A DNA stretch of 64,000 nt from an uncultured bacterium (GTDB taxonomy: Bacteria > Cyanobacteriota > Vampirovibrionia > Gastranaerophilales > Gastranaerophilaceae): positions 85,599 to 149,598 of the forward strand of contig CADBFN010000001.1 in NCBI GenBank assembly GCA_902794035.1, read 5' to 3'. Under the pieces are notes generated by a model. The model did not search any database. It saw only the letters and a list, made by a program, of their open reading frames with translations, and was not told the origin of the DNA. The position numbers and the translations under genes were made by a program. Positions within the stretch are counted from its first letter, which is position 1, and each line of letters starts with the position of its first letter. Shown in pieces: positions 24,729-63,467 of this stretch.

Positions 24729-24771
24729 TGTAATAAAAGTTTAGGACAAAGAAGTAAGCATGTAAACAAGT

Positions 24772-24799
24772 TTAACAAAAGATACAATTATGTTAATAT
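24772..24799 (+). promoter_or_regulatory. Probable promoter of the small peptide RNA
   Basis: TTAACA (24772-24777), a 16-base spacer and TAATAT (24794-24799) precede the structured RNA. Transcription would start near 24806. Confidence 0.45.
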
Positions 24800-24879
24800 T
24801 TTCTTCAGGGTAAGCTCCTGTTTACCACCACCGTCACAGACAAGTTAAGTGGACTAAAACGGAAAGGTGGTGATGAGAA

Positions 24880-24954
24880 GTGAAGTTCAGTATTACTGAA
24901 AAAGCGCTATGGCTTATCTTACTGATAATCATAGCGCTAATCTTTGCTAAATAG
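24880..24954 (+). CDS. 24-residue hydrophobic peptide (toxin-like)
   Basis: From GTG at 24880 the frame reads KFSITEKALWLILLIIIAL after the initiator and ends IFAK. One transmembrane segment of about 16 residues is flanked by Lys at both ends. AGGTGGTGA lies six bases upstream. An 8-codon frame starting at ATG 24873 overlaps the start, which could couple translation. Short hydrophobic peptides of this kind include type I toxins and small membrane-complex subunits. Without an antisense RNA seen, the toxin assignment is a guess. Confidence 0.5.
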   Translation: MKFSITEKALWLILLIIIALIFAK

Positions 24955-24963
24955 GGAGTTAAG

Positions 24964-24999
24964 AAAGGTTCTAAAAGGTTACGACTTTTGGAACCTTTT
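24964..24999 (+). terminator. Terminator-like hairpin
   Basis: A 14-bp stem (AAAGGTTC-T-AAAAG with CTTTT-G-GAACCTTT, one G-T pair) has a seven-base loop. The T-run is short and overlaps the stem. Confidence 0.65.
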
Positions 25000-25076
25000 C
25001 CCTATATGTATATTTTAACCTATTTTACAAAATTTTCAACCCCTTATACAAATTCAATAAATATTAGTTTAGGCAG

Positions 25077-25685
25077 TTAAATTCTGAATTTTTTCATAAT
25101 CTTAATTAATTGTTTATATGTATTTTCGCCTAATTCATTTAATGCACGCAATCTCCCCTTCCCATAGTCTACATGTCTTTGTACTGTTTCAGAATCTGCC
25201 CATCCTTTCATTCTTTCAATGAAATCATCACTTATATGCTCGTTCGTTTCTTTTACATGTTCCTGAAATGATTTTTTAGAACCTAAATCTAACCAATAAC
25301 CATTTCCTAAGGATGTTTGAGTGCCATATATTATTCTTTCGCCTTGTGGAGTTGTGATATGTCTTCTCATACTGCCATCCGCTTCTTTAACAACACAAAC
25401 AGAATTTCCGGTTGATCTCTTATATCTCCCATGAGCCTTCTGCACCCCTCTATTGTGTTCTATATAAGCCGAATGAATATCATATATTAATGTTTTTTCT
25501 TCTCCATTTGGTTTGATTTCCGTTAATGCAGTATTAGTTCTGGCAAATTCACCTTCTTTTATTTGTCCGCGAGTTAATTCTTCATCAAATTTTCCATAAG
25601 GGTGTTCCCCTTCTTTTTTATAATGATATTTTTTTCCATTCAGATTGAAAGTTCTGTCTATAAGAATTATTGGCTTATCTAACAT
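25077..25685 (-). CDS. Protein of unknown function
   Basis: A 202-residue, hydrophilic, mostly basic protein without signal peptide or membrane segment. It is rich in Gly, His and Lys and carries beta-type stretches (ILIDRTFNLNGKKYHYKKEG, ERIIYGTQTSLGNGYWLDLG). The final 60 residues look helical. I do not recognise it. The ribosome site is weak, so the start is tentative. It sits alone between the peptide RNA and rplI. Confidence 0.6.
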   Translation of the reverse strand: MLDKPIILIDRTFNLNGKKYHYKKEGEHPYGKFDEELTRGQIKEGEFARTNTALTEIKPNGEEKTLIYDIHSAYIEHNRGVQKAHGRYKRSTGNSVCVVKEADGSMRRHITTPQGERIIYGTQTSLGNGYWLDLGSKKSFQEHVKETNEHISDDFIERMKGWADSETVQRHVDYGKGRLRALNELGENTYKQLIKIMKKFRI

Positions 25686-25945
25686 AAATTACCAGCTTTC
25701 TGTGTAAACACACTTTATCTTTTCTTCTACGCACCAATGATAAGTTATAAACATAAAAAAAATTGCTATAAGTATAAAGAAATATTAACACAATTTTCCC
25801 AAATTAACTTTACCAATTAAAAAATCTCTCTTTGGAAGATAAAGTACAATAACTTAACAAATTTACATAACCTCTCGACAAATGAGTTTGTTTGGTGTAA
25901 GGTTGTGCTACACGCAGAAATATAAGTACAAAGGAGAATATTATT

Positions 25946-48047: not shown

Positions 48048-48081
48048 GTGTTAATTATAGCATAATTTTTAAAGATTACAC

Positions 48082-48646
48082 CCTCACCCGTTTTTCTAAT
48101 GCTCATACTTCGCATTGAAAAACTTCCCTCTCCCAAAGGTAGAGGGGTTAAAGTTTTGTATATGCTTGCAATATGTATCCCAAAACACCGTTTATATTTT
48201 TTGAAATGTCATTATTAAAAATTCTAACTACTTTATACCCTGATTTAAGCAAATATTCAGTTCTTTCTTTATCATATTCAACATTTTCATTTTCAAGATG
48301 TTGAGAGCCATCTAATTCAATAATCAAATTTTTATCCATACATACAAAATCAGCAATATATTTCCCGATAGGAAATTGCCGTCTGAATTTTATGTTATTC
48401 AGAGCACGATTTCTCAAATAATGCCACAATATACTTTCAGTATCTGTTTGATTTTGTCTTAGTTCTTTGGCATTTACATTTGCAATTTTTGTATAATGTC
48501 TATTCATAAAATAATTATATCATACCCCTCTACCTTTGGGAGAGGGCAGAAAATCAAGTTGAGACGGTGTGAGCAGAGGATGAAAGGTGAAGCCGATATC
48601 CGTTTAGTGCGAACACCGGATGCGAAACTTAGATTTTCGGGTGAGG
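48082..48646. mobile_element. Nuclease-bearing inverted-repeat element (565 bp)
   Basis: Outer arms CCTCACCCG (48082-48090) and CGGGTGAGG (48638-48646) are inverted. Inner arms are a 22-bp inverted repeat beginning CCCTCTCCCAAAGG (48126-48147) and ending CCTTTGGGAGAGGG (48526-48547). Between the inner arms is one DUF559 nuclease gene whose stop codon touches the left arm. The whole unit sits between two unrelated genes (permease and proS) and has no transposase. Boundaries are estimated; no target duplication was found by eye. Confidence 0.6.
48148..48507 (-). CDS. DUF559 (Vsr-like) endonuclease-fold protein
   Basis: A 119-residue DUF559 protein of the PD-(D/E)xK/Vsr group. Motifs are QFPIGKYIADFVCMDKNLII, ELDGSQH (with the acidic cluster) and GYKVVRIFNNDI. 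The family is usually linked to DNA repair or mobile elements but its function is poorly known. The stop codon TAA is the last three bases before the inverted repeat. No good ribosome site is seen; a TATAAT box overlaps the 5' side. It resembles the gene at 62076. Confidence 0.85.
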   Translation of the reverse strand: MNRHYTKIANVNAKELRQNQTDTESILWHYLRNRALNNIKFRRQFPIGKYIADFVCMDKNLIIELDGSQHLENENVEYDKERTEYLLKSGYKVVRIFNNDISKNINGVLGYILQAYTKL

Positions 48647-59835: not shown

Positions 59836-60708
59836 TTAAATTTTATATTTCCCGCGTTCAAAAACAAAGATATTTAACAAAGAAAATATCATAACAATAA
59901 CCAAAAGAATTACCGCCATTGCACTGGCATAACCCAAATCCAGATTTTCAAAAGCTTTTTCATATATATAATATACAATCGTTTTTGTAGAATTTAGCGG
60001 ACCACCTTTGGTCATAACATAAATTTCTGCAAAAATTTTCATTGCCGAAATTGAACTGATTGTAGATACAAGTGCAATGGTAGGCATTAAATGAGGGATT
60101 GTTACAGTCAGGTGTTTTTGCCAAAAATTAGCTCCGTCAATATCACATGCTTCATAAAGCTCTTTTGGCACACTCATTAATGATGCCAAATAAATCATCA
60201 TATAATACCCGATGCCCTTCCAAATAGTAAGAATTATAACAGAATAAATTGAATATTTAGGATCGGTAAGCCACCCGATGGCAGGCAAATGTAACACCTG
60301 CATAAAATAATTTAATATTCCGTCCTGTGCATATAGCCACTTAAATGCAATCGCAGCAACAACTATTGAAACAATTACAGGCAAATAAATAAGAATTTTA
60401 TACAAAGTTATTGCACGTATTTTCTGATTTATTAATACCGCTAAAAACAAAGGAAAAATAGCCAAAACAGGTACTGCTACAATAAGATAAATTAAAGTAT
60501 TAAGCATGACTTTATAAAATACAGGATTGTGCAATATCTGAATATAATTTTGAATCCCCGCATAATCAGGATTGTAAATACTATCTGAATAATTAAAAAA
60601 ACTCAGCCCGATTGTCTGAAAAAACGGAATAAAGAAAAATACAACCAACACTAATACTGCAGGCAACAAGAACAAATATGGTGCAAATTTTCCATAATAC
60701 TTAAACAT
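59836..60708 (-). CDS. Sugar ABC transporter permease (MalF/UgpA type)
   Basis: A 290-residue permease with six transmembrane helices. The EAA loop is KELYEACDIDGANFWQKHL (about 190-210). FLFFLPAVLVLVVFFFIPFFQT-type start is typical (FAPYLFLLPAVLVLVVFFFI). It matches the MalG-type permease at 47223 and the ATPase at 112, all separated. Confidence 0.9.
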   Translation of the reverse strand: MFKYYGKFAPYLFLLPAVLVLVVFFFIPFFQTIGLSFFNYSDSIYNPDYAGIQNYIQILHNPVFYKVMLNTLIYLIVAVPVLAIFPLFLAVLINQKIRAITLYKILIYLPVIVSIVVAAIAFKWLYAQDGILNYFMQVLHLPAIGWLTDPKYSIYSVIILTIWKGIGYYMMIYLASLMSVPKELYEACDIDGANFWQKHLTVTIPHLMPTIALVSTISSISAMKIFAEIYVMTKGGPLNSTKTIVYYIYEKAFENLDLGYASAMAVILLVIVMIFSLLNIFVFERGKYKI

Positions 60709-60790: not shown

Positions 60791-61666
60791 TTAACTTTTT
60801 GCAATTCTTTTTACATAAGAAAAATATTCATTATTCTTGTAATTTTTGATATTTTCAAGAATTTTATCAGGCGAAATAAATCCCATTCTCATGGCAATTT
60901 CTTCAAGACAGGCAATTTTTATCCCCTGATTATCTTCAATTGTCTGAATATACTGTCCTGCCTGCAATAATGATCTGTGAGTTCCCGTATCGAGCCAGGC
61001 AAAACCACGACCTAATATATTCACTCCCAAATTACCATTTTCAAGATATATCTTGTTAAGGTCGGTAATTTCAAGCTCTCCTCTGGCAGACGGTTTTAAA
61101 TTTTTAGCATATTCAACAACTTTGTTATCATAAAAATACAAACCTGTAACTGCGTAATTTGATTTTGGATTTTGAGGTTTTTCTTCAATAGATATTGCTT
61201 TCCCGTTTTCATCAAATTCAACAACACCAAATCTTTCAGGATCTTTTACCTGATAACCAAAAACAGAAGCACCGCCATATTTTTCAATAATTTTAATTGA
61301 GTTTTGCATCATTCCTGAAAAACCTGGGCCATAAAAAATATTATCTCCTAATATTAATGCAGCACAATCCTCTCCAATGAATTCTTCACCAATAATAAAA
61401 GCCTGCGCTAATCCGTCAGGTGAAGGTTGTTCTTTATAAGAAAAACTTACTCCAAATTGAGAGCCGTCACCTAATAATTTTTTAAAATTAGGTAAATCTT
61501 CAGGTGTTGAAATAATAAGAATTTCCTTAATACCGGCAAGCATTAAAACTGATAACGGATGATATATCATAGGTTTATCATAAACAGGAAGCAGTTGTTT
61601 TGATACGGTCATTGTACTTGGGTATAATCTTGTTCCGCTTCCGCCGGCTAATACAATTCCTTTCAT
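60791..61666 (-). CDS. rmlA: Glucose-1-phosphate thymidylyltransferase
   Basis: RmlA makes dTDP-glucose, first step to dTDP-rhamnose. A 291-residue protein with [20 protein letters not shown] (1-20), [20 protein letters not shown] and [14 protein letters not shown] (substrate site), and [20 protein letters not shown]. Length and motifs normal. The nuclease element lies between it and rmlD. Confidence 0.96.
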
Positions 61667-61750
61667 AATTAAACTCCTTTATTAAAATACTAACTGAAAA
61701 TGTGTTATATGTCAAAGCAGGATTAATTGCATAATTTGCGGGGGTTATAA

Positions 61751-62090
61751 GACTCCCTTGTGGAAAAGAGGAGAACCACATTAGTGGTGGAGGACAAATG
61801 CCTCCATTGTGAAAGGGAGGGAGACCACGTTAGTGGTGGAGGACAAATGCCTCCCTTGTGAAAGGGAGGGGGACCACGTTAGTGGTGGAAGACATCAGCC
61901 TCCCTTGTTAAAGGGAGGGGGACCACGTTAGTGGTGGAAGACATCAGCCTCCCTTGTTAAAGGGAGGGGGACCACGTTAGTGGTGGAGGACAAAAGCCTC
62001 CCTTGTCAAAGGGAGGGGGACCACGTTAGTGGTGGAAGGACAAAAGCCTCCCTTGTCAAAGGGAGGGGGACCACGTTAGTGGTGGAAGGA
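61751..62090. repeat. Seven-unit tandem array of a 49-50 bp palindromic repeat
   Basis: Units start at 61751, 61800, 61849, 61898, 61947, 61996 and 62046. Each reads GCCTCCCTTGT-n-AAAGGGAGG followed by GACCACGTTAGTGGTGGA and an 8-base tail. Two hairpins per unit: CCTCCCTT/AAGGGAGG and CCAC/GTGG. No unique spacers, so this is not CRISPR. The first two units are diverged, the last five nearly identical. The last unit contains the stop codon of the DUF559 gene. Confidence 0.85.
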
Positions 62091-62432
62091 TTTTGATACG
62101 ATATCATCAATATTATTACAAACCCCTTCAAAGTTATTATCAATATCTAAATTTGTAAATCTTATAACTTTTAATCCGTATCCTTCAAGAATTTCTGTTC
62201 GCTTTTTATCATACTCCATTGCTTCTTCTGTATAATGTTGTCCACCATCTATTTCGATTACCAATTTTGCTTTTGAACAATAAAAATCAACAACATAATT
62301 TTCTATTACTTTTTGACGCAAAAATCTTAATCTATATGTTCTTAAAAAGTCATACCACAGGTGCTTTTCTTGCTTTGTCATGTTTTTTCTTAAATTTTTT
62401 GCATATGGTGTGAGAATTTTGTTATGTTTCAT
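62076..62432 (-). CDS. DUF559 (Vsr-like) endonuclease-fold protein
   Basis: A 118-residue DUF559 protein. YAKNLRKNMTKQEKHLWYDF, VVDFYCSKAKLVI, EIDGGQHY and GLKVIRFTNLDI are family motifs with the acidic and His residues. Its last codons (Ser-Phe-His-His-stop) are encoded by the seventh repeat of the array. It is related to, but clearly different from, the protein at 48148. Nuclease activity is assumed from the fold. Confidence 0.87.
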   Translation of the reverse strand: MKHNKILTPYAKNLRKNMTKQEKHLWYDFLRTYRLRFLRQKVIENYVVDFYCSKAKLVIEIDGGQHYTEEAMEYDKKRTEILEGYGLKVIRFTNLDIDNNFEGVCNNIDDIVSKSFHH

Positions 62433-62437
62433 ATAAT

Positions 62438-62527
62438 CCCTCCGTCACTTCGTGCCACCTCCCTTTAACAAGGGAGGCCTTTCCCCTCCGTCACTTCGTG
62501 CCACCTCCCTTTAACAAGGAAGGCTGA
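62438..62527. repeat. Two inverted repeat units right of the nuclease gene
   Basis: Each 45-bp unit is CCCTCCGTCACTTCGTG followed by CCACCTCCCTTTAACAAG and GGAGGC. The AAAGGGAGG core is the same as in the left array, but the second hairpin differs (GTCACTTCGTG instead of CCACTAACGTGG). A decayed third copy (CAGCCACTTCGTAT) follows. Confidence 0.75.
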
Positions 62528-62558: not shown

Positions 62559-63467
62559 CTATCTGATTGCAATATAGTCCTTTAGTGCATCCTGCCAAGG
62601 TCTGCATAAACCGCCATTATCCATTACGCTATAAGCAGGACGCTTTGCAGGACGAGGGAATTCATCAGTCGTACAAGGCTTTAAATTAACATTTAAGCCT
62701 GACAAATCAAATATTTCTTGTGCAAATCCATACCATGATGTCTGACCGCCACCACAAACATGATAAGTTCCAAAAGCTTTACCTGACAATAATTTTATTA
62801 TTCCATTGCAAAGTTCAACCGTCCAAGTCGGGCATCCGACCTGATCATCAACTACTTTTAATTCAGGTTTATCAGCCAACGAAATCATTGTTTCAACAAA
62901 ATTTTTACCATGTATTCCATATAACCAGGCAGTACGGGCAATATAATACTTCTTACAATATTTGCGAACGGCTTGTTCCCCTTGCCATTTTGTTAAACCA
63001 TAATTGTTTAAAGGATCTGTAGGGTCTGTAGGTTTTAATTTTGTTATTTCTTCTCCTTTAAATACATAATCGGTAGAAATATAGACTAAGGTTATATTTT
63101 TTTCACCGCAAACTTTTGCAAGATTTTCTGTACCTGTGGCATTAATTTTATGAGCTGTTTCATAATCTTCTTCAGCTCTATCAACATTTGTATATGCGGC
63201 ACAATGAATAACAATATCCGGCTTTTGCTCGGATATTACGGATATAACAGAATGAAAATCGGTTATATCCAAAATCCCTCCACCACTAACGTGGTCCCCC
63301 TCCCTTTGACAAGGGAGGCTTTTCCCTCCACCACTAACGTGGTCCCCCTCCCTTTGACAAGGGAGGCTGATGTCAGTTTTGAATACTTCATAGCCATTCT
63401 GTTCTAATATTGGACAAATATCTTGCCCTAACATACCATTTGCACCTGTTACAAGAACTTTTGCCAT
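62559..63467 (-). CDS. rmlD: dTDP-4-dehydrorhamnose reductase with an in-frame repeat insertion
   Basis: RmlD performs the last step to dTDP-rhamnose. A 302-residue SDR with VTGANGMLGQDI (6-17), CAAYTNVDRAEED, STDYVFKGEE and YGLTKWQGEQAV (Tyr/Lys). Residues 34-64 are a duplicated 16-residue insertion (SLPCQREGDHVSGGG, Lys, SLPCQREGDHVSGGG, Ile) encoded by two 48-bp copies of the palindromic repeat. It lies in the loop after the first beta-alpha unit, between TDI and LDITD. The enzyme may tolerate it. One-base overlap (TAATG) with rmlB. Confidence 0.93.
   Translation of the reverse strand: MAKVLVTGANGMLGQDICPILEQNGYEVFKTDISLPCQREGDHVSGGGKSLPCQREGDHVSGGGILDITDFHSVISVISEQKPDIVIHCAAYTNVDRAEEDYETAHKINATGTENLAKVCGEKNITLVYISTDYVFKGEEITKLKPTDPTDPLNNYGLTKWQGEQAVRKYCKKYYIARTAWLYGIHGKNFVETMISLADKPELKVVDDQVGCPTWTVELCNGIIKLLSGKAFGTYHVCGGGQTSWYGFAQEIFDLSGLNVNLKPCTTDEFPRPAKRPAYSVMDNGGLCRPWQDALKDYIAIR
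63276..63371. repeat. Two palindromic repeat copies inside rmlD
   Basis: Two exact 48-bp copies (63276-63323, 63324-63371) of CCCTCCACCACTAACGTGG then TCCCCCTCCCTTTGACAAG and GGAGGC. They are inverted relative to the 61751 array. The period of 48 bases keeps the reading frame, while the array period of 49-50 would not. Confidence 0.9.

Follow-up and report, generated by a model that had tools for sequence, protein, structure and literature searches.

The stretch of DNA analyzed here (the window, 64,000 nucleotides) carries a small stand-alone gene for a DUF559 nuclease that is bounded on both sides by palindromic repeats, and the question that this locus raises is whether gene and repeats form a single unit and whether the nuclease is what spreads the repeats. 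We consider it likely that the gene and its flanking palindromes constitute one compact mobile cassette of about 430-520 bp, and that the DUF559 protein, as a nuclease resembling homing endonucleases, mobilizes both this cassette and solo repeats in trans. Several features were observed directly: the architecture and its breadth across phyla, a cassette-specific match between left and right repeats, one and the same cassette at sites that have no relation to each other, relatives in which the site is empty, and the dispersal of solo repeats, including into reading frames. Association and movement were thereby demonstrated, while causation is inferred, no experiment showing that the nuclease cleaves or mobilizes the repeat. 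An earlier note on this DNA had suggested, by analogy with RAYT transposases and REP sequences, that the nuclease may copy or move the repeats; the association and the moved cassettes described below favor that suggestion, but the copying or moving itself is still inference.

The DUF559 gene (62076..62432, minus strand; 118 amino acids) is flanked on one side by an array of 6.9 units of a two-hairpin palindrome (61749..62086, plus strand; period 49, with 92% matches among its copies) and on the other, upstream of the gene, by two inverted units 46 bp apart (62434..62525, minus strand), an arrangement that the earlier note had recognized as a seven-unit array facing inverted copies. Each array unit combines two hairpins, CCTCCCTTGTNAAAGGGAGG and ACCAC-GTTA-GTGGT, in a fixed order: the GC hairpin CCTCCCTT..AAGGGAGG, then the ACCAC-GTTA-GTGGT hairpin, then a closing purine run. 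When folded as single-stranded DNA, the unit gave a z of -3.8, and none of 200 shuffles folded as well. The ends of the repeat are CCCTC/GAGGG-type runs; a search of the window for the pattern CCCTCWMC with two mismatches allowed gave no match, because local variants differ in spacing. The first inverted copy carries GGAGGG (62438-62443), so the earlier claim that this copy supplies the Shine-Dalgarno sequence stands, except that the spacing to the ATG is 5 nt rather than six. Likewise, the TAA stop codon (62076-62078) lies within the last array unit, as had been proposed, but about six final codons, and not three, are repeat-derived, since the match of that unit to the copies in rmlD extends to 62095.

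Those rmlD copies are two further units of the window repeat, inserted in frame (63275..63368, minus strand) within the host gene (62559..63467, minus strand). A ThiF/MoeB-like gene on contig C28 of this genome (G000; L016 1380-1520) likewise holds two in-frame units of the same family. With at most one mismatch allowed, the family is confined to this genome and was found in 0/45 other genomes of the genus. No target-site duplication is visible at the rmlD insertion, but the proteins of the relatives compared are just 85-88% identical. In-frame insertions in the rmlD genes of genomes G002 and G015 were considered as possible copies of the window repeat and rejected, as they are an unrelated repeat: a different, longer sequence (..GCGCTATCTTATCCGCCTGTGCAATCACAGATTG..) lies mid-gene and in frame in both (L133 1240-1530 and L134 1980-2130). 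It seems that rmlD tolerates repeat insertions at two places.

The encoded protein is a stand-alone PD-(D/E)XK, Vsr-like nuclease. It matches the Pfam DUF559 profile (PF04480) with an E value of 1.1e-32 and 112.6 bits, above the curated cut-off of 20.6. The AF2 model (pLDDT 92.8) was matched by Foldseek to the Neisseria protein 3hrl and to the catalytic domain of I-Bth0305I (3r3p; TM-score 0.81 by target, profile match 2.7e-6) and, more weakly, to Vsr (1cw0/1vsr), and sequence profiles agreed with these fold matches. The residues that are invariant or nearly so in 166 relatives, E19, D48, E59, D61, H65, D74 and R77 (numbering of row 1 of alignment A1), are all present, the acidic and histidine residues being 98-100% conserved among those sequences. 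With dN/dS at 0-0.3 in all pairs but one, and at 0.05-0.3 in most of them, and with the active-site residues conserved, the nuclease is under purifying selection. In Caulobacter cells that lack its partner methylase, the DUF559 protein VsrA provokes an SOS response (PMC12907096), which is consistent with nuclease activity in vivo. Given the fold relatives, the conserved residues and the VsrA response, cutting or nicking at the repeat can be inferred, although it has not been shown. Hydrolytic nuclease chemistry alone leaves DNA ends unjoined, and this counts against DUF559 as the mobilizer. A defense-system assignment through PADLOC was rejected because the hits were weak.

The genome contains three stand-alone DUF559 genes, all of them palindrome-flanked, by three different sequences. 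The second lies in the same window (48148..48507, minus strand; cassette 48081-48646) and is flanked by a different repeat family: the downstream repeat (48081..48147, minus strand), which abuts the stop codon, reads CCCTCACCC, an AT hairpin and CCCTCTCCC..GGTAGAGGG, and the upstream inverted repeat (48524..48646, minus strand) reads CCCCTCTACC..GGGAGAGGG, a long hairpin and CGGGTGAGG. The third is on contig C13 (G000:C13).

To see how general this layout is, we looked within 300 bp of each DUF559 gene in 46 genomes of the genus. A palindrome motif accompanied 54/56 stand-alone genes, on both sides in 44 cases; the corresponding figures were 1/16 for DUF559 proteins that are fused or large and 13.75% for background pieces. 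We then surveyed 80 DUF559 loci from many phyla, discounting one (L172) as an N-run artefact. Here, the inverted-repeat score between the flanks had a median of 21 and reached at least 16 in 52/79 loci, whereas in 146 placements of this geometry at other points of these loci no score exceeded 12 (0/146 at 14 or more). Among loci with an unambiguous motif tail polarity on both sides, inverted arrangements outnumbered direct ones 35:8. The layout is also present in proteobacteria, Patescibacteria, Chloroflexi and further groups. Neisseria has direct flanking copies instead of inverted ones; at the N. gonorrhoeae locus (L230, DUF559 at 1501-1815), direct copies of about 100 bp, of a repeat containing CTCTCCCTGTGGGA, may represent a variant arrangement. 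The earlier note would have called the link between gene and palindromes accidental under two joint conditions, the first being that the relatives' DUF559 genes lack flanking repeats, and these counts, from the genus and from the broad survey alike, run the other way.

Gene and repeats were found together at different places. A block of 424 bp, made up of the gene with the repeat sequence next to it, is 91% identical between one locus of genome G019 (L043) and loci of G021 and G017 (L031/L049). Beyond the block, homology in matching positions is absent, and just scattered repeat copies are shared. Other pairs of loci likewise hold near-identical cassettes at unrelated sites. The window itself lacks the G019 cassette: in G019, that cassette follows a gene shared with the window, and homology ends where the repeat begins (59845..59846). 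Conversely, the window cassette is missing from the rmlD-rmlA junction of G019, where rmlA (60791..61666, minus strand, in the window) follows rmlD after about 30 bp, and likewise from G013; the insert within rmlD is absent from both genomes as well. The cleanest empty site lies downstream of lysAC, where genome G188 has both neighbor genes and neither DUF559 nor motif, while at the same locus G064 carries 39-bp perfect terminal inverted repeats (CTCCCTCTCCCCTCCGGGGAGAGGGTTGGGGTGAGGGGC) around its DUF559 gene. The search for empty sites that the earlier note had advised thus yielded both empty sites and moved cassettes and, with the flanking counts, supports its view of gene and palindromes as one unit.

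No target-site duplication was identified. A comparison of window positions 24766-25744 with L031/L049 was rejected as a clean empty site, there being another insertion at that place. In E. coli (ycjD) and Azospirillum, DUF559 is inherited stably at a single site; this shows that many copies are quiet, and they may be relics. A strain-level empty site in E. coli was rejected, as strains without ycjD have an efflux pump operon after sapF there (L231-L233), and strain polymorphism in Azospirillum plasmids was rejected because the orthologue is present in close strains. On the Klebsiella pneumoniae plasmid pVA126-339 (L229, 1501-1781), a ycjD-like DUF559 match falls in two pieces, is not annotated as a gene and has apparently decayed; it adjoins triplex-type motifs, as though the gene had been lost and the repeats left behind.

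We next asked whether gene and repeat vary together. In genomes with several cassettes, the left repeat resembled the right repeat of its own cassette more closely than that of any other in 28/37 cases (p 5e-10), and protein similarity tracked repeat similarity across genomes (Mantel r 0.32, 0/500 permutations). Among 121 genomes of the Xanthomonadales (an order name that we read from Dyella and Rhodanobacter), at least five exact motif copies were present in 19/30 genomes with a full-length DUF559 gene but in only 1/91 without one, and this lone exception (G179) holds a DUF559 remnant; in the order tested, high copy number is thus restricted to DUF559 genomes, apart from one with a remnant, and the second of the note's joint conditions for an accidental link, repeats equally common in genomes without the gene, did not hold either. 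The difference persisted within strata of relatedness (8/9 vs 0/7 and 11/17 vs 1/22; permutation p about 5e-5). These strata rest on LysAC identity, a rough measure, and the counts are species-level, partly phylogenetically dependent and not tree-corrected. Eight of the 30 DUF559-positive Xanthomonadales had no exact CCCTCTCC motif, other repeat types being uncounted. In the genus, any motif copy was present in 27/30 genomes with a stand-alone DUF559 gene vs 4/12 without any. Absence calls are imperfect, as many genomes are metagenome assemblies.

These data bear on the alternative that survives best, in which something else spreads the palindromes and DUF559, as an invader, cleaves them and homes into the space between paired copies. 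The closest characterized structural relative of the protein is a homing endonuclease, I-Bth0305I; cassettes do sit between inverted copies; and one genomic site can hold different DUF559 genes in opposite orientations, as at the site of the second window cassette, which in G021 and G024 is occupied by a different DUF559 gene pointing the other way. However, an invader of pre-existing repeats is hard to reconcile with the near absence of motif-rich genomes lacking DUF559, and each cassette has its own repeat variant rather than the common one of its genome. Moreover, the window repeat family was seen in none of the other genus genomes and was therefore not waiting there beforehand. We regard homing into pre-existing repeats as unlikely, and mobilization of gene and repeats by the nuclease remains the reading that we prefer.

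A second possibility is that the repeats depend for their movement on a separate transposase or recombinase, with DUF559, as a nuclease of VSP repair, restriction or addiction type, being cargo caught between two of them. DUF559 proteins can have host roles, as VsrA does in Caulobacter (PMC12907096), and the repeats could serve as recombination sites. Yet a Y1/RAYT transposase (PF01797) was not found in this genome, and we rejected such an enzyme as mobilizer on that ground; nor does cargo status predict the copy number of solo repeats. Small GIY-YIG nucleases of the same genus served as a control family. A conserved 88-aa orthologue had a DUF559-type motif in 1/25 cases and the other palindrome class in none, while a patchy group of about 100-150 aa was associated with a GTCATTGCGAG/GTCATCCTGAACTTGTTTCAGGATC class of palindrome at 15/20 loci and with the DUF559 class at 0/20; conversely, 0/56 DUF559 genes had the GIY-YIG class. 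Since the motif lists were compiled after some of the control and DUF559 loci had been viewed, these figures are descriptive. The double dissociation nonetheless argues against insertion hotspots, terminators and generic effects, and a different repeat class beside a different nuclease is not what trapped cargo would lead one to expect, so that we think this possibility improbable, more so than homing, and continue to favor the nuclease as mobilizer. The patchy GIY-YIG genes (L304-L323, e.g., L305, L309, L312 and L321) look like a parallel nuclease-repeat system in their own right, and this genome has such loci at G000:C6:31080, C17:21373 and C4:13396.

The commonest repeat flanking DUF559 genes turned out to be the intrastrand triplex motif TM/TMECO (PIT), CCCTCTCCC-loop-GGGAGAGGG-TTAGGGTGAGGGG, in the form CCCTCTCCC-loop-GGGAGAGGG-TT(A/G)GGGTGAGGGG. 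Many cassettes across phyla meet the criterion for this motif, namely CCCTCTCCC-loop-GGGAGAGGG followed by a third strand (T/C)(T/C)(A/G)GGGTGAGGG. The motif has been reported from more than 260 genomes, with 23 copies in E. coli MG1655, by authors who never found mobility genes near it and left its spread unexplained (PMC4666352). Here, it is tied to DUF559. In the RefSeq annotation of E. coli K-12, TMECO copy 9 (1351204-1351239) lies between fabI and ycjD (b1289, 1351407-1351760), which is the E. coli DUF559 gene, at 168 bp from ycjD, and direct inspection of another E. coli record also revealed a TMECO motif in the fabI-ycjD intergenic region. No paper describing the DUF559-repeat link was found among the open-access papers searched, although other papers could hold prior notice of it. 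Palindromes of the triplex/PIT type, which have been linked to rearrangement hotspots, are now tied to a specific gene family with a copy, ycjD, in E. coli K-12, and their origin and spread are therefore directly testable.

The same motif brings in the view that the hairpins are ordinary transcription signals, terminators or insulators, selected around small genes. GC hairpins do adjoin the gene, and the same palindrome, recorded at a hundred places in Enterobacter sp. 638, was guessed to be a terminator (PMC2869309). Against this, an earlier test saw no promoter or terminator activity of the E. coli motif (reported in PMC4666352); the repeats occur within reading frames (rmlD and the ThiF-like gene), upstream of genes as well as downstream, in arrays and in cassette-specific forms; and fused DUF559 genes and the conserved small GIY-YIG gene do without them, which leaves this view with very little to recommend it. 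That DUF559 and the repeats merely share GC-rich, mobile-rich genomes, by chance or lineage, gains something from the partial phylogenetic dependence of the counts but can be set aside with even greater confidence, given the proximity within 20-60 bp, the inverted arrangement, the left-right matching within genomes, the stratified association and the GIY-YIG double dissociation.

A cassette consists of an inverted repeat, a short promoter region, the DUF559 reading frame and a stop codon abutting or lying within the opposite inverted repeat. The DUF559 protein is inferred to recognize the repeat that belongs to it, probably folded as a hairpin or triplex, and it may nick or break DNA there, a step for which there are no cleavage data. 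Host repair could then copy the repeat, or repeat, gene and repeat together, into the break, which again is inference. Solo repeats would be non-autonomous passengers mobilized in trans, as is thought for REPs by RAYTs, and local arrays like the one of seven units in the window might reflect amplification, early or local, around a cassette that arrived recently. To date, DUF559 is the strongest candidate for what drives a widespread bacterial palindromic repeat whose origin and spread had gone unexplained. Were it the driver, the unusual proline-rich peptide tails added to proteins by such repeats, e.g., at L030 (DPHPNPLPQEREN), would be accounted for as well. A broader proposal, for which we judge the prospects to be evenly balanced, is that these cassettes represent a class of minimal mobile element not recognized before, whose cognate palindromic repeats are amplified by a single small endonuclease instead of a transposase. 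At least two unrelated nuclease families would have evolved this in parallel, DUF559 with CCCTCTCC/triplex repeats and GIY-YIG with GTCATTGCGAG/GTCATCCTGAA, and together they would lie behind a large part of the so far unexplained palindromic repeats in bacterial genomes, including E. coli TMECO/PIT.

Set beside known systems, the cassette has partial counterparts. Homing endonucleases drive the spread of their own genes, and I-Bth0305I (3R3P), a Vsr-like member of that class, resembles DUF559 in fold and profile match. Unlike the DUF559 cassette, I-Bth0305I is intron-associated, and we know of no dispersed palindromic repeat family that goes with it. Insertion sequences with their MITEs offer another parallel, an autonomous unit with terminal inverted repeats and short non-autonomous derivatives, and the requirement of terminal inverted repeats plus empty sites is met by the 39-bp ends in G064 and the empty site in G188; in contrast to those elements, the DUF559 cassette has no transposase of a known class and repeats that are themselves hairpins, and no target-site duplication was seen with it. 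The window repeat does not satisfy the TM/TMECO criterion and is a cousin of that motif, with a second hairpin in place of the third strand. Rickettsia palindromic elements (RPE, CGTC REPs) are also inserted in protein genes without a known dedicated transposase (PMC3733652), but differ in tag and sequence. The closest likeness is to RAYT/REP, in which a small gene lies between two inverted palindromes, solo repeats are dispersed, gene and repeat co-vary, repeats are abundant in genomes that have the gene, and repeats accumulate locally near it (PMC2817692, PMC3733652). The DUF559 system works like RAYT/REP but is not RAYT, for both enzyme family and repeat tag fail: RAYT is an HUH tyrosine transposase (PF01797), whereas the window gene encodes a PD-(D/E)XK nuclease (PF04480), and REPs are GTAG-tagged, whereas the DUF559 repeat belongs to the CCCTCTCC/triplex class with no GTAG at its end. 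The DUF559 cassette also differs in that related genomes have it at different sites. Should the nuclease prove to be the driver, it would constitute a second repeat-mobilizing system in bacteria, parallel to RAYT/REP and based on unrelated chemistry, with GIY-YIG perhaps a third.
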